A stretch of DNA of 28,039 bases from a virus, in the IMG/VR virus record IMGVR_UViG_3300007513_001276, positions 1-28,039 of that record. One strand, 5' to 3'. The stretch's first letter is position 1. Every line of letters begins with the position of its first letter. The position numbers and the translations under genes were made by a program. Shown piece by piece: positions 11,162 through 27,579 of the stretch. Under the pieces are notes generated by a model that was not told the origin of the DNA, did not search any database, and worked only from the letters and a program-made list of their open reading frames with translations.

Positions 11162-11875
11162 ATGTTAGTTAATGAAATAATCAAACAAGTAGAAGAGGGA
11201 GTAGATGACCCTCACATTTTTAAAGCAGTTTTCATGGCTGGTGGTCCTGGAAGCGGTAAGTCTTATATTGCAAAATCAAGATTATTAAAGGGTAGTGGCT
11301 TAAAAATTGTCAATTCAGATGACGTATTCGAGTTTAAAATGGGCAAAGCAGGATTAGACTTTGAAGACCCAGAAGTCATATACAGTCCACAAGGTCAAGA
11401 AATTAGAAATAAAGCAAAAGATACTACAGCAACAATGGAAGCCGGATATCTTAGAGGTAGATTGGGAATAATTATAGATGGTACTGGAAGAGAGATAGGC
11501 AAGATAGCAGGTGCTAAAGAAAAGTTAGTTAATATGGGCTACTCATGTATGATGGTTTTCGTTAATACAAGTTTAGAAGTAGCACAAGCAAGAAATCTAG
11601 ACCGAGAAGGTAGAACTATTAAACCTGAAGAAGTAGAAAAAATGTGGAATGCAGTTCAAAATAACATAATGAAATTCCAACAATTATTTGGTGCAGATAA
11701 ATTTCAGATTGTAGACAATAATGGTGGTCTTGAAGACCCAGATAGAGCAGAGAATTTTAGAGTAGTTGAGAAAAACATTACGGCTTTTATTAATCGTCCA
11801 CCTTCAAATCCTTATGCGAAAAACTGGATAGAAAACGAGAGAAAGAAAAAGAATGCAAATCTTAAACAAGAATAG
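11162..11875 (+). CDS. P-loop kinase, zeta-toxin/adenylate-kinase-like, 237 aa
   Basis: A Walker A motif GGPGSGKS at residues 27-34 follows a beta strand (KAVFMA). KIVNSDDVFE supplies the acidic residues seen after the P-loop in zeta toxins and polynucleotide kinases, LGIIIDGTGRE (around residue 101) is a Walker B-like strand, and the R-N-L-D-R-E-G-R segment near residue 142 fits a lid with arginines. The family phosphorylates small molecules or nucleic-acid ends; the substrate cannot be told. Similar kinases are common in marine T4-like phages. No antitoxin gene is adjacent. It is controlled by tandem early and late promoters and leads into the glycosyltransferase 7 nt downstream. Confidence 0.85.
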   Translation: MLVNEIIKQVEEGVDDPHIFKAVFMAGGPGSGKSYIAKSRLLKGSGLKIVNSDDVFEFKMGKAGLDFEDPEVIYSPQGQEIRNKAKDTTATMEAGYLRGRLGIIIDGTGREIGKIAGAKEKLVNMGYSCMMVFVNTSLEVAQARNLDREGRTIKPEEVEKMWNAVQNNIMKFQQLFGADKFQIVDNNGGLEDPDRAENFRVVEKNITAFINRPPSNPYAKNWIENERKKKNANLKQE

Positions 11876-12750: not shown

Positions 12751-12776
12751 CTTAAACTCATAAATACAGTTATAAG
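12751..12776 (+). repeat. Inverted repeat with late promoter exactly in the loop
   Basis: CTTAAACT (12751-12758) pairs with AGTTATAAG (12768-12776) over eight base pairs with a single bulged A; the nine-base loop is exactly the late promoter CATAAATAC. Confidence 0.65.
12759..12767 (+). promoter_or_regulatory. T4-type late promoter CATAAATAC before the prkA triad
   Basis: CATAAATAC ending 29 nt before the ATG at 12797. It is the only promoter seen before the three-gene block 12797-17606. Confidence 0.85.
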
Positions 12777-12796: not shown

Positions 12797-14731
12797 ATGG
12801 GATTAATTAAAAAGTTTGAAAAATCGTATGCGAGTAAAGAACACGAGGAGATGTCACTTTCTGATTATCTTGCATTGTGTAAGAAAGACAAGTTAGCATA
12901 TGCATCCTCGGCAGAGAGATTGCTGGATGCAATTGGAGAACCTGATGTAGTCGATACTAGCAACGATGCTAGATTGAGTCGTATATTCTTAAATCGTACG
13001 ATTAAAGTCTATCCAGCATTTAGTGACTTTTATGGTATGGAAGAAGCAATTGAGAGATTAGTTGCATATTTTCGTCAGTCTGCTCAAGGACTCGAAGAAA
13101 AGAAACAAGTCTTATATCTACTAGGACCAGTTGGTGGTGGTAAATCATCATTAGCAGAACGTCTAAAAGAATTAATGGAAAAGCACCCAATCTATGTGCT
13201 TAAAGCAGGAAACGACATCTCACCAGTATTTGAATCACCACTAGGACTATTTGAGCCTAAAGAGTTTGGTGATGATGCTAAAAAAGAATTTAAAATCCCA
13301 TCACGTTATCTTACAGGTTTAATGTCACCATGGGCAGTTAAAAGACTAGATGAGTTTGAAGGCGACATTTCGAAGTTTAGTGTTGTTAAAATGTACCCAT
13401 CTAAGTTAAAGCAAATTGCTTGTATGAAGACTGAACCAGGTGATGACAACAACCAAGATATTTCAGCACTAGTTGGTAAGACTGATATTCGTAAATTAGA
13501 ATTCTTCTCACAAAATGACCCAGATTCATACGCATTTTCGGGTGCGTTATGTCGTGGTAATCAAGGTGTTATGGAATTCGTAGAGATGTTTAAAGCACCA
13601 ATCAAAGTATTACATCCATTATTAACAGCAACACAAGAAGGTAATTACATGGGAACTGAAGGTATTTCAGCAATTCCATTTAATGGTATCGTAGTTGCTC
13701 ACTCAAATGAGAGTGAATGGGAAACATTTAGAAATAATAAGAACAATGAAGCATTTTTGGACAGAGTATATATCGTTAAAGTTCCATATTGTGTACGTGC
13801 CACAGAAGAAACATTTATCTATCAGAAGATGTTAGATGCATCAGGACTAGATAGTAGCAAATGTGCGCCACATACACTTGATTTGTTATCACAGTTCTCA
13901 GTGCTTTCAAGATTAAAAGAACATAAAAACTCTAACTTAGCGGCTAAGATGAGAGTCTATAATGGTGAAAACTTACACGACATAGACCCTAAGGCAAAGT
14001 CAATGCAAGAGTATAGAGATGTTGCAGGTGTAGATGAAGGAATGAATGGAATGAGTACTCGTTTTGCATTTAAGATTCTTTCACAAACATTCAACTTTGA
14101 CGCAGAGGAAATTGCGGCTGACCCAGTACATCTTATGTATGTGTTAGAAACTGCAATCAAACGTGAACAGTTTCCAGAAGAAACGGAAGAACAGTTAATA
14201 GGTTTTATTAAAGACCACTTAGCAGTTAAGTATAGTGAACAAGTAGGAAAAGAAATTCAAAAAGCATACTTAGAGAGTTATAATGAATATGGTCAAAATC
14301 TATTTGATAGATACTTAGATTATGCTGACCATTGGATTCAGAATATCGATTATAAAGATTCTGACACTGGTAACTTGTTTGACCGTTCTATTCTTAACGA
14401 AGAACTTGAGAAGATTGAAAAGCCTGCAGGTATTGCCAATCCAAAAGACTTTAGAAATGAAGTTGTAAACTGGGTATTACGTGCAAGAAGCAACTACAAA
14501 GGCAAGAATCCACCTTGGACTTCTTATGAGAAGATGAAAGAAGTGATTGAACACAAGATGTTTGCAGGAACAGAAGAATTGCTTCCAGTTATTTCATTTG
14601 GTAGCAAGAAATCTAAAGAAGACCAATCTAAACATGATGATTTCATAGATAGAATGGTAACAAAAGGTTACACGACACGTCAAGTTAAACGATTAGTAGA
14701 ATGGTATATGCGAGTACAGAAGTCTAACTAG
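12797..14731 (+). CDS. prkA: PrkA/YeaG-family serine protein kinase, 644 aa
   Basis: The full-length protein matches the PrkA (YeaG) layout: an AAA+-like N-terminal module with Walker A GPVGGGKS at residues 110-117, long conserved stretches including LKAGNDISPVFESPLGLFEP and ALCRGNQGVMEFVEMFKAPI, LLTATQEGNYMGTEG, and a C-terminal kinase-like module (DWIQNI-type helix, ARSNYKGKNPPWTSYEKMK). In bacteria PrkA is a serine kinase or AAA+ protein used in stationary phase, nitrogen starvation and sporulation. It is followed by YeaH and SpoVR homologues, the same trio that co-occur in proteobacteria. The block is under a late promoter. GAGG precedes the ATG. No frameshift or missing motif was noticed. 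Confidence 0.95.
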   Translation: MGLIKKFEKSYASKEHEEMSLSDYLALCKKDKLAYASSAERLLDAIGEPDVVDTSNDARLSRIFLNRTIKVYPAFSDFYGMEEAIERLVAYFRQSAQGLEEKKQVLYLLGPVGGGKSSLAERLKELMEKHPIYVLKAGNDISPVFESPLGLFEPKEFGDDAKKEFKIPSRYLTGLMSPWAVKRLDEFEGDISKFSVVKMYPSKLKQIACMKTEPGDDNNQDISALVGKTDIRKLEFFSQNDPDSYAFSGALCRGNQGVMEFVEMFKAPIKVLHPLLTATQEGNYMGTEGISAIPFNGIVVAHSNESEWETFRNNKNNEAFLDRVYIVKVPYCVRATEETFIYQKMLDASGLDSSKCAPHTLDLLSQFSVLSRLKEHKNSNLAAKMRVYNGENLHDIDPKAKSMQEYRDVAGVDEGMNGMSTRFAFKILSQTFNFDAEEIAADPVHLMYVLETAIKREQFPEETEEQLIGFIKDHLAVKYSEQVGKEIQKAYLESYNEYGQNLFDRYLDYADHWIQNIDYKDSDTGNLFDRSILNEELEKIEKPAGIANPKDFRNEVVNWVLRARSNYKGKNPPWTSYEKMKEVIEHKMFAGTEELLPVISFGSKKSKEDQSKHDDFIDRMVTKGYTTRQVKRLVEWYMRVQKSN

Positions 14732-14743
14732 AGGAAGACTTTC

Positions 14744-16087
14744 ATGGCAAATACAATTATCGACAGAAGAAAGAATGGGGACTTAAGACAACCTGGTTCA
14801 AAATCTTCTAACAATCGACAAAAATTTATCAAAAGAACTAAAAAAGAGATACGTAAAAGTATACATGATACTTTGGGTAAACGAAGTATCAAAGGTTCTG
14901 GCGATGCCCAAGATGTAGTCATCAATCGAAAAGGTATTGATGAACCTCAATTCAGTCATAATCCACAAACAGGCTCACGTGATATAGTTCTCCCAGGCAA
15001 CAAAGAATATGTTGAGGGCGATTTATTACAGAAACCAAAAGGTGGCGGTGCTGGCAGTGGTGGTGCTTCTGGTAAAGCAAGTAATGAAGGCATCGGCGAA
15101 GACGAATTTGGATTTGCGTTAAGTAATGACGAATTTGTTAACATCTTGTTTGAAGACTTAGAACTTCCTCATATGATTTCCAAAGAAAACAAAGCGGTTG
15201 AACGTTTTGAGATATCTCGTAGCGGATATACAACTGACGGCACTCCAGCACAAATGAATTTAGAGAAAAGCATGGTCAATTCTCTTGGTCGTAAGATTGC
15301 TTTAAAAACTCCAAAACTAAAAAAGATTAAAGAACTACAAGAAGAACTTGACAATCTTGATAAGTTCTTTTATAAGACAACAAAAGAACAAAAAGAAGCA
15401 ACAGAAGAATGGAAACGATATCAAGAAATCGAAGAAGAAATTCGTAAGTTGCGTATCAGAGCAAATGCTGTTTCATTCGTTGACCCAGTTGATTTACGAT
15501 ATAATAATTTTACTAAGAAACCAGCACCAATATCACAAGCAGTTGTATTCTTTATTATGGATGTGAGTGCAAGTATGACAGAACAACATAAAGACTTAGC
15601 AAAACGATTTTTTATGTTACTTAACTTGTTTGTATCTCGAAAATACAAAAGAGTAGAGTGTGTTTTTATCAGACATCACATTCTAGCAATGGAATCCTCT
15701 GAAGATGAATTTTTTAATAGCAGAGATAACGGTGGTACAATAGTTTCAAGTGCATTTAAACTTTCGAAAGAAATCCTTGCTGACCGTTATTCGCCAAATG
15801 AATGGAACATATATTTTGCTCAAGCAAGTGACGGTGACAACTTTGATAATGACAATGAAGAACTTAAGGATATCATTGTTAATGATATATTACCTATAAC
15901 TCAATATTTTAGTTATATTCAAGTAGGAACAAAGAGACATGGTTATTACAATAGTGGAAACTTATTACAGGAATATGTACCATTACAAGCACAACATAAG
16001 AACATGGTAACTAAACACATAGAAGATACTTCTGACATATATCCAGTGTTTAGAGAAATATTTAAAATTAGAGGTAAAAATGAGTAA
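14744..16087 (+). CDS. yeaH: YeaH/YhbH-family (DUF444) VWA protein, 447 aa
   Basis: The N-terminus is typical of the family (IIDRRKNGDLRQPGSKSSNN), with a conserved SIKGSGD-type loop and a glycine-rich linker at residues 99-110. The C-terminal half is a von Willebrand A domain with a MIDAS-like DVSASM at residues 273-278 and GGTIVSSA and QASDGDNF motifs. It is the usual partner of PrkA and probably bridges or regulates the kinase. It lies 12 nt after prkA with AGAGGAAG as ribosome binding site and overlaps the SpoVR gene by 8 nt, so the three are one operon. Length is normal for the family. Confidence 0.93.
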   Translation: MANTIIDRRKNGDLRQPGSKSSNNRQKFIKRTKKEIRKSIHDTLGKRSIKGSGDAQDVVINRKGIDEPQFSHNPQTGSRDIVLPGNKEYVEGDLLQKPKGGGAGSGGASGKASNEGIGEDEFGFALSNDEFVNILFEDLELPHMISKENKAVERFEISRSGYTTDGTPAQMNLEKSMVNSLGRKIALKTPKLKKIKELQEELDNLDKFFYKTTKEQKEATEEWKRYQEIEEEIRKLRIRANAVSFVDPVDLRYNNFTKKPAPISQAVVFFIMDVSASMTEQHKDLAKRFFMLLNLFVSRKYKRVECVFIRHHILAMESSEDEFFNSRDNGGTIVSSAFKLSKEILADRYSPNEWNIYFAQASDGDNFDNDNEELKDIIVNDILPITQYFSYIQVGTKRHGYYNSGNLLQEYVPLQAQHKNMVTKHIEDTSDIYPVFREIFKIRGKNE

Positions 16088-17606
16088 TTTAATATATACA
16101 GGTTCTAGTTGGAATTTTGATAAACTATATCGTATGATGGATGCGTGTGAAGAAATCGCAATCAACGATATGGGACTTGATTGTTTCCCTAATCAGATTG
16201 AAGTCATTACAGTAGAACAAATGTTAGATGCATACTCAAGTGTTGGCATGCCATTGATGTATAATCATTGGAGTTTCGGTAAAAGTTTCATTTCAAATCA
16301 AAAACAGTATAGTGCAGGACAGATGGGATTAGCATATGAGTTAGTTATTAATTCTAATCCTTGTATCAACTATCTTATGGAAGAAAACTCTATGACAACA
16401 CAATCTCTTGTGATTGCTCATGCGGCCTTTGGACATAATCACTTCTTTAAGAATAATTATCTGTTTAAGCAGTGGACATCACCAGATGCAATTGTTGATT
16501 ATCTATTATTTGCAAAAAGATACATAAGAGAATGTGAAGAAAAGTATGGTGTAACGGCAGTAGAGGAAACACTAGATGCGTGTCATGCCATTCAATATCA
16601 AAGTATTAATAAGTATAAAAGACCTAATAGAATATCAGCAAAAGAAGAAATAGAACAACAACGCACAAGAAGTGAATATCTTCAGTCACAAGTAAACGAC
16701 TTATGGCGCACATTACCAGAATCTAAAAAAGAAGAGAAAAAAGAAGAAAAGAACTGGCCAACAGAGCCAGAAGAAAATTTATTATATTTCTTAGAAAAGC
16801 ATTCGCCAATTTTAACTGCATGGCAACGTGAGATATGTAGAATCGTTAGACGAGTAGCACAATATTTTTATCCTCAATATCAAACAAAAGTGATGAATGA
16901 AGGTTTTGCAAGTTTTACACATCATTATATATTCAATAAATTATACGATGAAGGTAAAGTAGATGATGGTGCAATGATTGAATTCTTTAGATTACATAGT
17001 GCAGTACTAAATCAACCATCTTTTGATTCGCCTAATTATGTTGGATTCAATCCATACACATTGGGCTTTTCTATATTGAAGGATATTCAACGAGTTTGTT
17101 TAGAACCAGATGAAGAAGATAAACGATGGTTTCCTCATCTAGCAGACACAGATTGGCGTATTGCAATCAAAGATATTGCCGCTAATTATCGTGATGAGAG
17201 TGCAATCCTGCAATTTCTAGGACCGAAAGTTATTCGTGACCAAAAAATGTTTAATTTACATGACGAAGTTCATTATGACGATTATAAAGTTACGTCAATA
17301 CATGATGACCGTGGATACAAAAAGATTCGTAAGAATTTAAGTTCTAGTTATGAAACAGCCTCAATGATACCTGATATTCAAGTAACAAATGCTGATATCA
17401 AGGCTACACGTGATTTAACACTATTACATGAAAGTTATAAAGGAAAGAGATTAGACGAAAAAACAGCAAATCAAGTTTTATCACATGTACAGAAGTTGTG
17501 GGGATATAAAGTAAAATTATACACAATGCATGGTGAAACATTATTAGATGTATTTGAATGTAAACAAGTTTCTAATGAAAAAGTAGGTTCAAATCTCATA
17601 GTATAA
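16080..17606 (+). CDS. spoVR: SpoVR/YcgB-family protein, 508 aa
   Basis: The sequence carries SpoVR hallmarks: MPLMYNHWSFGKSF, GLAYELVINSNPCINYLMEENS, VIAHAAFGHNHFFKNNYLF, ILTAWQREICRIVRRVAQYF and NEGFASFTHHYIFNKL, plus NYVGFNPYTLGF later. Several histidines and glutamates in these motifs look like metal ligands. SpoVR acts in Bacillus spore cortex formation, and its proteobacterial relative YcgB works with YeaG/YeaH in starvation responses; the biochemistry is not known. The ATG overlaps the yeaH stop. Length matches bacterial relatives, so it is probably functional. An early promoter for the next block lies 14 nt beyond the stop. Confidence 0.95.
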   Translation: MSNLIYTGSSWNFDKLYRMMDACEEIAINDMGLDCFPNQIEVITVEQMLDAYSSVGMPLMYNHWSFGKSFISNQKQYSAGQMGLAYELVINSNPCINYLMEENSMTTQSLVIAHAAFGHNHFFKNNYLFKQWTSPDAIVDYLLFAKRYIRECEEKYGVTAVEETLDACHAIQYQSINKYKRPNRISAKEEIEQQRTRSEYLQSQVNDLWRTLPESKKEEKKEEKNWPTEPEENLLYFLEKHSPILTAWQREICRIVRRVAQYFYPQYQTKVMNEGFASFTHHYIFNKLYDEGKVDDGAMIEFFRLHSAVLNQPSFDSPNYVGFNPYTLGFSILKDIQRVCLEPDEEDKRWFPHLADTDWRIAIKDIAANYRDESAILQFLGPKVIRDQKMFNLHDEVHYDDYKVTSIHDDRGYKKIRKNLSSSYETASMIPDIQVTNADIKATRDLTLLHESYKGKRLDEKTANQVLSHVQKLWGYKVKLYTMHGETLLDVFECKQVSNEKVGSNLIV

Positions 17607-17620
17607 AAGTAAATTAACTG

Positions 17621-17649
17621 TTGCATATTGACTCCAGATATGATATAAT
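17621..17649 (+). promoter_or_regulatory. Early sigma70 promoter (TTGCAT-17-TATAAT, extended -10)
   Basis: TTGCAT (17621-17626), 17-nt spacer, TATAAT (17644-17649) with TG one base upstream. The nearer TTGACT at 17628 would leave only 10 nt of spacer and is not used in this reading. The leader to the ATG at 17680 is short. Confidence 0.85.
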
Positions 17650-17679: not shown

Positions 17680-17964
17680 ATGAGTTATGCTGAAACATTC
17701 AAACAACGCAATGTGTTCTGTTTGAAATATAAAAAAGAAATGCCTGCACTCTTTGAAGCACCTTTTCCAGGTGAAGCAGGCGAAAAAATCTTAGAAAACA
17801 TATCTGCCCAAGCGTGGAGTGAATGGCTTGAGATGCAGACTATGTTTATCAATGAAAATCAACTAAACATGATGGACCCAAAGGCAAGAGAATTCTTAGC
17901 AGAACGCAGAGAAGAATTTTTGTTTAAAGGTGGCGAAAAACTTGACCCACCTACTCCTGTTTAG
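17680..17964 (+). CDS. yggX: YggX-family Fe(II)-trafficking / oxidative damage protection protein, 94 aa
   Basis: The family signature is plain: VFCLKYKKEMPAL (cysteine 14 is the conserved one), FPGEAGEKILENISAQAW, then EWLEMQTMFINENQLNMMDP and AREFLAERREEFLF. YggX protects iron-sulphur proteins from oxidants and is thought to handle labile iron. Length matches bacterial YggX apart from a few extra N-terminal residues. It is the first gene after an early promoter, with GGAG before the ATG. A host-derived iron-sulphur upkeep gene in a phage is unusual, and a ferredoxin gene lies 4.6 kb downstream. Confidence 0.95.
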   Translation: MSYAETFKQRNVFCLKYKKEMPALFEAPFPGEAGEKILENISAQAWSEWLEMQTMFINENQLNMMDPKAREFLAERREEFLFKGGEKLDPPTPV

Positions 17965-22577: not shown

Positions 22578-22922
22578 ATGGCATACGTAGTAACACAAGA
22601 TTGTATCAAATGTAAGTACACAGATTGTGTAGAAGTTTGTCCAGTTGACTGTTTTTACGAAGGTGCAGATATGCTGGCTATTAATCCAGATGAATGTATT
22701 GATTGTGGAGTATGCGAACCAGAATGTCCAGCAGATGCCATTATAGCAGATAACAATCCAAAATTTACACAAAGACTTTTAGATATAAATGACAAGATGT
22801 CACGGATATGGCCAGTGATTGTAGAACAAATACCAGCACCAGCAGATGCAGATGATTGGAACCCTAAAAAGGGTTACGATAAGGATAAAACATCATTATT
22901 AGACCAGTTTGATAAAGAGTAA
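22578..22922 (+). CDS. fdxA: FdxA-type 7Fe ferredoxin ([3Fe-4S][4Fe-4S]), 114 aa
   Basis: All nine cysteines of the Azotobacter ferredoxin I class are present: C9, C12, C17, C21, C25, then C40, C43, C46 and C50 in [11 protein letters not shown]. By analogy C9, C17 and C50 hold the [3Fe-4S] cluster, and C21, C40, C43 and C46 the [4Fe-4S]. The long C-terminal segment ([20 protein letters not shown], then DWNPKKG) is also typical, so it is a full-length bacterial ferredoxin, not the plant type of cyanophages. It is a soluble low-potential electron carrier. It is read from the early promoter at 22360. Its redox partner is not in the window. Confidence 0.97.
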
Positions 22923-23755: not shown

Positions 23756-25246
23756 ATGTTATTTCCAATAATTACATTTATAACCGCCATTGCAATTGCG
23801 GCAATTGCCGCTTGGTTTTCAGTTTATGGTCTTATGGCTATATTTACGGCATCAGCAGTTGCCGTTGCCATTATGGCAGTAGCACTAGAAGTTGGTAAAT
23901 TAGTATCAGCATCGTGGGTGTACCGTAACTGGAATAGGGCACCATTTCTTTTAAAATCTTATCTTACAATCGCAGTAATAATTCTAATGCTCATTACTTC
24001 AATGGGTATCTTTGGTTTTCTATCAAAAGCACATTTAGAACAAGCGGCTGACAGTGACGAAAACACTGCTCGTATTGAACGTATTGTTCAGGATATGGAA
24101 AGATATGAGATTTCAACAGATAGACTTGAAGAAAAAATTACAAAATTAGATGATGAAAGTGAAGTAGACACTTCAAAAATACAAGAACAAATCGATACAG
24201 AGGAAGCAAGAATGGACAATGTTATGGTCCGAATTCAGCCTGCTATCGATGAACAGAATTTAATCATTAGTACTGACTTAGAAAAAGATGATGAAAAGAT
24301 TGCTCCATATCTAAATCAATTAGATAACTTAGATAGAGAACTTCTTAGTCTTGAAGAACAGGCTAAGAAACTTGAACAAGATATTATTAATGTTGGTAAA
24401 GATACAACAAATTATGATTATGCAGTAAAACCATTCAATGACCAGATTGATAAAATCAAATCAGACATAGCAACATTTAAAGAAATGTCTAAATCTGGTG
24501 AACAAGCAGACCTTAAGAAAGCACAACAAGTAGTTGGTATACCTTGGGGATATTGGAGAAATTCAGAAGTTGTTGCTGAATGGAATGCAGACCAAGAAGT
24601 AAAGTTGACACAACTAGGAACAAAGATTGCAGAAGTTCGTAAAGACTTTGAAAGACAATACAAACTAGAACGTACCAGTCTTAGAAGACTAGTTACAAAA
24701 TTGAGAGGCGAAGACACACAGGCTGTTAATGAACGTAAGATGGAATTACTAGTAAAAATTGAAGAAGCAAGAGGAGTTGAATCCTCTGTAATATCTTCCG
24801 CTAGAGATGAAATCAAAAGATTACGTGAAAAAGCAGATAGAGAAGTTGCAGGTTCTTTAATCATTCTTGACCGATTAAGAAATGAATTACTCAACGTATC
24901 ACAAATTGACAATTCAGTAGAGATTGATACATTACAATTACAAATCAATAATAACGAAAATTCTATTGATGGATTGATAGACCAAAAGTTTGAATTAGAA
25001 CGAGAGATTAGACAAATTGAAACAGAGATTGGACCTATCAAGTACATTGCAGAGATGGTATATGGTAACACAGAAAGAGATACAATTGACCAGGCAGTTA
25101 GATGGCTTATCATTGTGTTCATTTTTGTATTTGACCCATTAGCAGTATTACTTTTACTCGCCGCTAATTACAGTTTCATTCATAGGGACTTGGGTGGCAA
25201 ACAGAAAGAAATTTTTGATAAAGTTTCTTTCAAAAAAAAAAAGTAA
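23756..25246 (+). CDS. Membrane-anchored coiled-coil protein, 496 aa (0-frame product)
   Basis: AGAGGAGG is a strong ribosome binding site. Residues 1-45 hold two hydrophobic segments (FITAIAIAAIAAWFS and LMAIFTASAVAVAIMAVALE), residues 65-88 a third (YLTIAVIILMLITSMGIFGF), and about 445-475 a C-terminal one (WLIIVFIFVFDPLAVLLLLA). Between them, residues 95-440 are long coiled coils rich in E, K, L and Q (for example RIERIVQDMERYEISTDRLE). Similar coil-containing membrane proteins recur in T4-like marine phages, without known function. The frame ends in KKKK-stop at an A11 run, where a -1 shift would add 94 residues (see 25243-25527). Confidence 0.85.
   Translation: MLFPIITFITAIAIAAIAAWFSVYGLMAIFTASAVAVAIMAVALEVGKLVSASWVYRNWNRAPFLLKSYLTIAVIILMLITSMGIFGFLSKAHLEQAADSDENTARIERIVQDMERYEISTDRLEEKITKLDDESEVDTSKIQEQIDTEEARMDNVMVRIQPAIDEQNLIISTDLEKDDEKIAPYLNQLDNLDRELLSLEEQAKKLEQDIINVGKDTTNYDYAVKPFNDQIDKIKSDIATFKEMSKSGEQADLKKAQQVVGIPWGYWRNSEVVAEWNADQEVKLTQLGTKIAEVRKDFERQYKLERTSLRRLVTKLRGEDTQAVNERKMELLVKIEEARGVESSVISSARDEIKRLREKADREVAGSLIILDRLRNELLNVSQIDNSVEIDTLQLQINNNENSIDGLIDQKFELEREIRQIETEIGPIKYIAEMVYGNTERDTIDQAVRWLIIVFIFVFDPLAVLLLLAANYSFIHRDLGGKQKEIFDKVSFKKKK
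25237..25243 (+). promoter_or_regulatory. Candidate -1 ribosomal frameshift site A_AAA_AAG
   Basis: In the 0 frame the heptamer reads A AAA AAG and is followed at once by TAA. A AAA AAG is the slippery site of E. coli dnaX. The run of 11 A (25232-25242) precedes it. No strong downstream hairpin or upstream Shine-Dalgarno stimulator was found by eye. Confidence 0.6.
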
Positions 25247-25537: not shown

Positions 25538-26791
25538 TTGGCAGAAAATAAAGAATTCAAGTGTTCGTTTTGTGGAAAACCAAAGAACGACATCAAAACA
25601 TTAATTGCTGGACCTAACCAGTACATTTGTAATGAGTGTATTGATTTATGTCATGATATTATTCATGAGGTAAAAAAAGAAGAGAAACAAGATTATACAT
25701 CTATTTCTACCACTCCTGAAGAAATCAAAGAGTACTTGGATAACCATGTTATTGGTCAAAACGAAGCAAAAGAAGTGGTATCAGTTGCCGTTTATAATCA
25801 CTATAAACGTATCAATGCAACAGATACAGGAGTTGAACTAGATAAATCTAATATCTTATGTTTTGGACCTAGTGGCACAGGTAAAACTTTAATAGGCAAA
25901 ACTATTGCTAAATTTCTTGATGTACCATTTGCTCAAATCGATGCAACTACCCTAACTGAAAGTGGTTACGTTGGTGAAGACGTAGAGAATGTAGTACAAC
26001 GTTTGTTAATAGCATCAGATTTTGATATTGAAAAAGCAGAACGTGGTATCGTGTATATTGATGAAATTGATAAGAAAGCCAAGAAAGGTGAAAACTTATC
26101 AATCACAAAAGACGTTTCTGGCGAAGGTGTTCAACAGGCATTACTTAAAATCGTAGAAGGAACAGTAGTTCGTGTTCCACCAGGCGGTGGTCGTAAGCAT
26201 CCAAACCAAGAGATGATTGAAGTAGATACAAGAAAAATCTTATTCATTGTTGGTGGTGCATTTGTAGGTATTGATAAGATTGTAGAAAACAGAGTCAATA
26301 CAAGTCCTGGGATTGGTTTTAGTGCCAAACAAAAGGGAAGTAGTGAGTGTAATACTAGAGAACATATCAGAGCAACAGATTTTCTTAAATATGGATTGAT
26401 TCCAGAATTTATGGGTAGATTTCCAATTATAGTTGGACTTGATGAATTAACAGAAGAAGAATTAGTTAGAATTCTAATTGAACCAAAGAACAGTATAATT
26501 TCACAATTTAAGATGTTATTCGCTTTAGACAATGTAGAATTAGAAGTTGGTGATGAGGCTTTACAAGCAATTGCCAATGTAGCACATGAAGATACAACAG
26601 GTGCAAGAGGACTAAGAAGTGTAATAGAGAAGTCATTGTTAAAGACTCAATTTAAACTTCCAAAACTTGCAAAGGATGGACTTATAAAAGTTATCATTAC
26701 TAAAGATTTTATTTCAGGCACCACAGATAAGCCAATATTGGTTTATAAAGAAAAGGATGCTAAGGAGCCAGAACAAAAAGTAGATGGCTAA
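25538..26791 (+). CDS. clpX: ClpX, AAA+ unfoldase of the ClpXP protease, 417 aa, TTG start
   Basis: A full-length ClpX: zinc-binding domain with C9, C12, C31 and C34; Walker A GPSGTGKT (110-117); pore loop GYVG (143-146); Walker B IVYIDE (171-176); RKH loop (219-221); IGF loop (259-261) that docks on ClpP; arginine finger region FMGRFP (291-296); sensor 2 GARGLR (355-360). It unfolds tagged or adaptor-bound proteins and feeds them to ClpP. No clpP gene is in view, so it presumably uses host ClpP. The TTG start has AGAGG at a good distance and gives the expected N-terminus; no ATG nearby is better. It overlaps the IF3 gene by 8 nt. Confidence 0.97.
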
Positions 26792-27323
26792 GTTTTATAA
26801 GGACAATCGAAAAGATAGGATTGTATATAATCATCAAATAAAATTTGATACGTTGCGAGTGATAGGTTCCGACAGAACTACACTAGGAGTAATGAGTAAG
26901 AAAGAAGCCTTGGCTCTTGCAGACTCAGAAAATTTAGACTTAATATTGATTGTACCGAAGGCAAAGCCACCTGTTGCTAGAATTATTGAGTTGAATAAGT
27001 ATAGATACGAGCAACAAAAGAATGAAAAAGAAATGGCTAAAAAAGCCAGGGCGGCACGAATTGATACAAAAGAAATAAAGTTTAAACCTAATATAGGTGA
27101 ACACGACTTGCTCATAAAAATGAAACATGCACAAGAGTTTTTAGATAATGGAGCAAAAGTAAAAATAACAATTCAGATGCGTGGTCGAGAAAATGCAAAC
27201 AAGTCAGATGTGTTTACATTTTTTAAAGAAGCAATAGAAACACATTTAGTGAATTTTAAATATGATTCAAATTTAGCATTAAATGGAAATAGAATAATAG
27301 GAGTTTTGTTTAAAGATGGGTAG
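26784..27323 (+). CDS. infC: Translation initiation factor IF-3, 179 aa
   Basis: Length and order match bacterial IF3. N-domain: [38 protein letters not shown] (residues 51-68) and the helix linker [21 protein letters not shown]-domain: KEIKFKP (96-102), [20 protein letters not shown] (106-125), MRGREN (132-137). IF3 binds the 30S platform, keeps 50S off and checks the initiator tRNA and start codon. Here the usual PPVC is PPVA and the usual DYGK is ELNK, small departures from the norm. The start is ATG, not the autoregulating AUU of host infC. It overlaps clpX upstream and rpsU downstream. Confidence 0.95.
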
Positions 27324-27579
27324 ATACGTACCAAAAAAGAAAAAAACGGGCAGAGAAAGACCGATAGGTACGCACGTAGACGTCCAACATGACAACTTCG
27401 AAAGAGCATTAAGACTTTGGAAGAGAAAATGTTCAGATGCAGGAACAGTACAAGAAGTCAGAGAAAGACAAGCATTCATCAAGCCAACAGAAAAAAGAAA
27501 AAAGATGAAAGCGGCCGCGAAACAACGTACAAAACGTGAACGAGCAAAGAACAAACTACATAAGAAAAGATTATATTGA
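27316..27579 (+). CDS. rpsU: Ribosomal protein bS21, 87 aa
   Basis: From residue 23 the sequence follows bS21: VQHDNFERALRLWKRKCSDA, GTVQEVRERQAFIKPTEKRK, then a lysine- and arginine-rich helix ending in KKRLY. The family is normally about 70 residues; this one has about 20 extra basic residues at the front ([15 protein letters not shown]). bS21 sits on the 30S platform near the anti-Shine-Dalgarno end of 16S rRNA and helps mRNA selection. Phage bS21 genes are known in marine phages, but here it lies next to IF3, which acts at the same platform. The ATG overlaps the infC stop and the stop overlaps the next start. Confidence 0.95.
   Translation: MGRYVPKKKKTGRERPIGTHVDVQHDNFERALRLWKRKCSDAGTVQEVRERQAFIKPTEKRKKMKAAAKQRTKRERAKNKLHKKRLY

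Follow-up and report, generated by a model that had tools for sequence, protein, structure and literature searches.

A complete PrkA-YeaH-SpoVR gene trio as a conserved cassette of T4-type jumbo phages, with a possible role in starved hosts

The stretch of viral DNA analysed here (28,039 nucleotides [nt] of IMG/VR record IMGVR_UViG_3300007513_001276; hereafter the window) contains, at positions 12797-17606, three co-directional genes whose products in bacteria are known as PrkA (YeaG), YeaH and SpoVR (YcgB). The first (12797..14731, + strand) specifies a PrkA/YeaG-family AAA+ ATPase of 644 amino acids, with the Walker A motif GPVGGGKS at residues 110-117. It is followed by a gene (14744..16087, +) for a 447-amino acid YeaH/DUF444 protein possessing a von Willebrand factor A (VWA) domain with an intact metal ion-dependent adhesion site (MIDAS), and by one (16080..17606, +) for a SpoVR/YcgB-family protein of 508 amino acids. 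All three were assigned with Pfam and NCBIfam. PrkA matches the Pfam models AAA_PrkA (E 2e-170, 567 bits) and PrkA C-terminal (3e-67, 227 bits), and scores 1181 bits against NCBIfam equivalog NF011999, for which the cut-off is 576; its identity to E. coli YeaG is 67.7%. The corresponding values are 9e-146 and 487 bits (Pfam DUF444) and 518 bits against a cut-off of 396 (NCBIfam equivalog) for YeaH, and 1e-159 and 532 bits (PF04293) and 746 bits against 679 (NF008737) for SpoVR. A preliminary description of this DNA spoke of a complete triad, kept together with overlaps. The three open reading frames (ORFs) are indeed intact and lie above both the Pfam and the equivalog cut-offs; an overlap exists between YeaH and SpoVR (8 nt), but PrkA and YeaH are separated by a 12-nt gap.

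The genes have been well maintained. Measured against the window copies, the ratio of nonsynonymous to synonymous substitution rates (dN/dS) is 0.04-0.09 for PrkA, 0.08-0.14 for YeaH and 0.06-0.10 for SpoVR, with dS ranging from 0.5 to over 2, and among complete viral copies 77/77, 67/67 and 60/61, respectively, are full-length. Judged from these sequences, the trio is intact, co-linear and under purifying selection in the phage.

Co-occurrence of the three families was surveyed in IMG/VR, as the preliminary description had proposed, once with PrkA as the anchor (loci with 4.5 kb or more of downstream sequence) and once with SpoVR (loci with room upstream). YeaH and SpoVR accompany PrkA at 52 of 53 viral loci, and the complete trio is found in identical order at all 73 viral SpoVR loci; these counts do not represent independent events, because the surveys have many contigs in common and several contigs nearly duplicate others. 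The lone exception in the PrkA survey (L070) has E. coli YeaG as its partner in the PrkA tree described below; it is probably not viral, having the look of an E. coli-type contaminant, and was set aside. In bacteria the order prkA-yeaH-spoVR was observed at 63 of 72 loci, all of the exceptions being Enterobacteriaceae, and co-occurrence of the three genes across species has been reported (PMC2375023). The linkage of the trio is beyond chance expectation. Together with the purifying selection, the surveys bear out the earlier view that a host starvation module is held as a unit in the phage, and we conclude that many T4-type jumbo phages carry the triad as a near-obligatory cassette. This conclusion is new here: no description of the trio as a conserved phage cassette was found in the searchable papers, a body of literature that excludes most subscription journals and preprints. 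Phage PrkA and SpoVR have each been noted before, in the Ralstonia jumbo phage RsoM2USA (PMC8504454), in annotations of Thermus phages, and in the Eastern Tropical North Pacific oxygen-minimum-zone viromes, where SpoVR is the commonest "sporulation" gene (PMC8940887).

Two further records deserve mention. In a 642-kb phage (LR756502.1) the triad is split, a rare arrangement, with SpoVR some 243 kb from PrkA-YeaH (275880-277127 and 519971-521401). The record of the lambda-like Enterobacter phage LAU1 (MN688132.1, 1-3308) has yeaG-yeaH at its start; the genes very likely represent the host flank of a prophage, and they were set aside.

A quick tree of PrkA, including 26 bacterial rows, places the window protein in a phage-only clade of 31 sequences (SH-aLRT, an approximate likelihood ratio test, 95), and the phage and bacterial labels require at least 3-4 changes, gains and losses not being separated. 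The trio is also present in the cultured Thermus phages phiYS40, TMA, phiLo, MN1 and Lalka8/27, which are annotated with a serine kinase and SpoVR. Like the window, these phages have vWA (DUF444), SpoVR and PrkA together, each member being confirmed by Pfam in Lalka8, but the order is vWA-SpoVR-PrkA and their PrkA is only about 25-28% identical. Since the Thermus version is so much more distant and differently ordered, the trio must have entered phages more than once. The phylogeny suggested in the preliminary description thus speaks for repeated acquisition, and these sequence comparisons argue that the Thermus phages acquired the trio separately, a conclusion that is likewise new here. In phiYS40 an ORF of 616 amino acids without a Pfam match (L089:7947-9797) sits between SpoVR and PrkA.

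A T4-type major capsid protein (gp23) was detected in 12 of 32 triad records, including those of 155, 322, 342 and 578 kb, and in none of 14 control genomes; a terminase was found in 14 of the triad records tested, many of which are fragments. The 342-kb sister genome G007 shares 83% of PrkA residues and the gene order around PrkA with the window, and its capsid and terminase are 70% and 55% identical, respectively, to those of the Pseudomonas phages PA5oct, MIJ3 and Paride. The window itself resembles Paride in its exonuclease (47% identity), ClpX (43%) and ribosomal protein S21 (46%), and in the gene after the exonuclease; in view of these shared genes and of the kinship of G007, the window is related to the Paride jumbo lineage. 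These similarities mark its source as a jumbo myovirus that belongs to the T4 supergroup and is akin to the PA5oct/Paride lineage. Host contamination is ruled out by the phage neighbours, the promoters and the gp23-bearing sister. The genes flanking the trio in the window code for the exonuclease, a protein with a major-tropism-determinant N-terminal domain, prohead and virion proteins, and a tape-measure-like protein; those for ClpX, translation initiation factor IF3 and S21 adjoin one another at 25538-27579, and ClpX lies near S21 in Paride as well.

Late promoters of the T4 type are characterized by a TATAAATA-like element, situated near position -10 of the late genes and read with the phage sigma factor gp55. 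Such an element, CATAAATAC (phage consensus GATAAATAC), is located at 12759..12767 (+), its core ATAAATAC sitting 37 nt upstream of the PrkA ATG. Against an expectation of 2.9, there are 12 ATAAATAC sites in the window, every one of them on the + strand. Within 476 kb of sister contigs 109 such sites lie on the + (coding) strand, compared with 12 on the - strand, and 92 of the former are situated approximately 20-55 nt upstream of an ORF start (3.5 expected). In G007 the GATAAATAC element precedes the terminase and neighbouring genes; also present in this genome is a gene for a gp55-family late sigma factor (phrog_12791, E 2e-81; phrog_234, E 6e-22), which no control genome matches. Both parts of the system, the TATAAATA-like element before ORFs and the terminase gene and the gp55-kind sigma factor, are therefore present in this phage group, which has a T4-type late system, and the triad is probably under phage late control. 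The late promoter named in the preliminary description stands as far as the phage-wide element, the terminase site and the sigma factor are concerned; the consensus at the triad is not kept in most sisters. An exact ATAAATA within 150 nt before PrkA occurs solely in sister loci L007 and L008, besides L001, a near-identical copy of the window, and was rejected as a conserved feature of prkA. Elsewhere in the window, a 496-amino acid ORF (23756-25246) has a ATAAATAC site of its own; it gave a weak tetraspanin-like Pfam match, below the cut-off, and no PHROG family.

Residues G110, P111, G113, K116, S117, N304, R323 and R422 of PrkA are invariant in 40 sequences, and the AAA+ residues stay so even across the Thermus versions; in YeaH the MIDAS residues D273, S275, S277, T332 and D363 are invariant in 50 sequences. 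Loss of key residues, which the preliminary description had named as a possible refutation, is thus not seen for either protein. Its terms "kinase" and "signalling" are, however, too strong. Neither the HRD nor the DFG motif of Hanks-type Ser/Thr kinases was found in the 644 residues of PrkA, and the protein of Bacillus anthracis has no kinase P-loop and negligible kinase and protease activity (PMC13001217). As the protein is an AAA+ ATPase lacking both motifs, the kinase label is open to doubt, and we reject it on these motifs and this biochemistry. Solved bacterial PrkA structures (9xip-9xir; 30 chains in three entries) suggest that the bacterial protein is an oligomer. The predicted fold of YeaH, in which the VWA domain is confident, matches VWA domains with Z about 15, and its Foldseek matches include NorD from the AAA+/VWA system NorQ/NorD. 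From linkage and domain content we propose that PrkA and YeaH may constitute an AAA+/VWA machine.

Searches by sequence or profile against solved structures gave no match of note for either SpoVR or YeaH. In SpoVR two motifs are invariant, H114-A115-x-x-G118-H119 and N273-E274-G275-x-A277...H281. They resemble HExxxH and NEGxA, the zinc motifs of the gluzincin group (M49 and M1 families), and we infer that they coincide in space. The SpoVR model (predicted local distance difference test score, pLDDT, 83) aligned in VIA-align with 3o0y over 200 residues (root mean square deviation 3.8) at a Z of 13.4, a value near chance level for mostly helical models; most of the rows were gluzincins. The catalytic glutamate of HExxH/HExxxH is replaced in SpoVR, A115 being invariant in 43 sequences and Val occupying this position in the Thermus phages. 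The model predicts a metallopeptidase-like fold without the catalytic glutamate, and SpoVR would be a predicted metal-binding protein that is probably not a peptidase. As a separate observation, SpoVR of a 636-kb huge phage (LR756504; L091:16477-18378) is interrupted exactly at NEG^CATF by a mini-intein of some 115 residues, which starts CLVEGSLISTEDG and ends HN before Cys; the Pfam intein model gave an E value of 0.009, below the cut-off. Inteins favour active sites.

What might a phage gain from these proteins? The preliminary description raised an advantage in starving hosts, which is plausible. Our tentative proposal, to which we give slightly less than an even chance, is that the trio is a bacterial starvation module run late by the phage to sustain a starved host. 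PrkA would form an AAA+ ring, onto which YeaH would dock through its VWA/MIDAS domain, and the two might remodel or gate SpoVR, the predicted metal-binding, gluzincin-like partner. Expressed from a late phage promoter, the complex would impose or prolong, irrespective of host regulators, a metabolic state of the starvation type such as the bacterial module brings about under RpoS/NtrC control; over the course of a long infection, a slow-growing or nutrient-limited host could thereby be kept viable and productive. In nitrogen-starved E. coli, YeaG and YeaH jointly put a brake on metabolism (PMC10954441); in the same species YeaG aids the RpoS programme and keeps two toxin-antitoxin modules repressed (PMC4664914). 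Phage Paride replicates on deep-dormant Pseudomonas aeruginosa, in a manner largely dependent on RpoS and (p)ppGpp (PMC10761892), and the kinship suggests that the triad phages might themselves bring along a portion of such a programme. The latent period of RsoM2USA, 270 minutes (PMC8504454), is compatible with the proposal and is not evidence for it.

Several findings weigh against this starvation model. Paride and PA5oct do not have the triad, and infection of dormant hosts therefore needs no phage copy. Metabolism is slowed by the bacterial module, and such slowing could harm the phage too. In most sisters the triad's own late-promoter site is off-consensus, with CATAACTAC or GATAAGTA at the same place, perhaps a weaker promoter. 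As to the role given to SpoVR, its structural match has the near-chance Z already mentioned, Foldseek returned no significant match for the model, and a SpoVR profile yielded no useful alignment with E. coli PepN. A broader version, in which a self-contained starvation brake composed of AAA+, VWA and pseudo-metallopeptidase proteins, placed under late viral control, is a general device of jumbo phages for finishing infection in starved or dormant hosts, seems to us unlikely; were it true, the trio would be a phage-encoded counterpart of the host stationary-phase programme on which Paride depends.

Other roles can be envisaged. The trio might serve counter-defence, damping toxin-antitoxin or other growth-arrest responses to infection and so preventing shutdown of the cell ahead of progeny production. 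A gene for a Zeta-toxin/polynucleotide-kinase-like P-loop protein (11162-11875), conserved in sister contigs, is located two genes upstream of the triad, and homologues of the anti-CBASS protein Acb1 flank the triad in other jumbo phages; the latter are, however, neighbours in just 2 of 79 cases, late expression would come late for blocking abortive infection, and the trio proteins match no defence or counter-defence model in PADLOC (best E ~0.008), so that we regard counter-defence as unlikely and discard a defence system proper. Iron is suggested by the gene that directly follows the triad in all sister contigs long enough to show it, and which encodes a homologue of the Fe2+-trafficking protein YggX (Iron_traffic; 17680..17964, +; Pfam/NCBIfam). 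With YggX and a 4Fe-4S ferredoxin bearing a DUF3470 tail (22578-22922), the trio might mature or protect an iron enzyme needed by the phage, as NorQ/NorD do in cofactor insertion. The pairing of a VWA protein with an AAA+ partner, the NorD match of YeaH and the conserved His/Glu set of SpoVR would fit such metal or redox homeostasis, which we nonetheless consider quite unlikely: metal binding by SpoVR is itself a prediction, and yggX is set apart from the triad by a sigma-70-like promoter of its own, read from the sequence (TTGCAT-17 nt-TATAAT, extended -10; 17621..17649, +). YggX is present in sisters G007 and G008 but missing from all five triad phages tested outside the window's group. It was rejected as a core fourth member and is possibly an accessory confined to that group.

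The late promoter would equally suit a chaperone in which the AAA+/VWA pair remodels virion or packaging proteins, the link to starvation being incidental. The Lalka8 trio is placed between portal/minor head genes and the terminase gene, and genes for terminase, head closure and a tail sheath stabiliser occur near the triad in other lineages. Against such a helper, which we judge improbable, the neighbourhood of the triad changes with every lineage, bacteria use the operon without any phage, and SpoVR and YeaH retain every residue that is conserved in the bacterial families. That the genes are hitch-hiking host DNA, useless to the phage, is hardly credible. Their order is that of most proteobacteria (the 63 of 72 loci noted above), so one-step capture would be easy; this idea is contradicted by the strong purifying selection (dS from 0.5 to over 2), and the near-perfect intactness, the phage-only clade of 31, the repeated acquisition and the phage promoter speak against it as well.

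PrkA, YeaH and SpoVR are widespread in bacteria and their biochemical role is unsettled. Retention by viruses of exactly these three, repeatedly acquired and strongly selected, suggests that the trio is a self-sufficient unit. The viral trios provide separable versions for testing, and the cultured Thermus phages which carry one allow such tests now. If the starvation model holds, the trio is one specific candidate for the means by which large phages deal with hosts that are starving, as bacteria in nature usually are.

Among the closest known systems is the bacterial one, yeaG-yeaH plus ycgB, or the prkA-yeaH-spoVR operon of Pseudomonas, Vibrio, Halomonas and other genera, which agrees with the window in its three proteins, their order and the equivalog models matched. 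The bacterial operon is under RpoS/NtrC control (PMC10954441), whereas the window trio has a phage late-type promoter, resides in a phage genome and has a PrkA that falls within the phage-only clade. RsoM2USA is reported to possess SpoVR (ORF28) and PrkA (ORF30), which are listed separately with one unlisted ORF between them; the triad was not recognised in that paper (PMC8504454). Paride, PA5oct and MIJ3 (Wroclawvirus) share with the window the exonuclease beside a tropism-determinant-like gene and ClpX near S21, but lack PrkA, YeaH and SpoVR. Finally, NorQ/NorD, CbbQ/CbbO, RavA/ViaA and Mg-chelatase resemble the trio in combining an AAA+ ATPase with a VWA/MIDAS partner; PrkA belongs to an AAA+ family of its own and not to MoxR.

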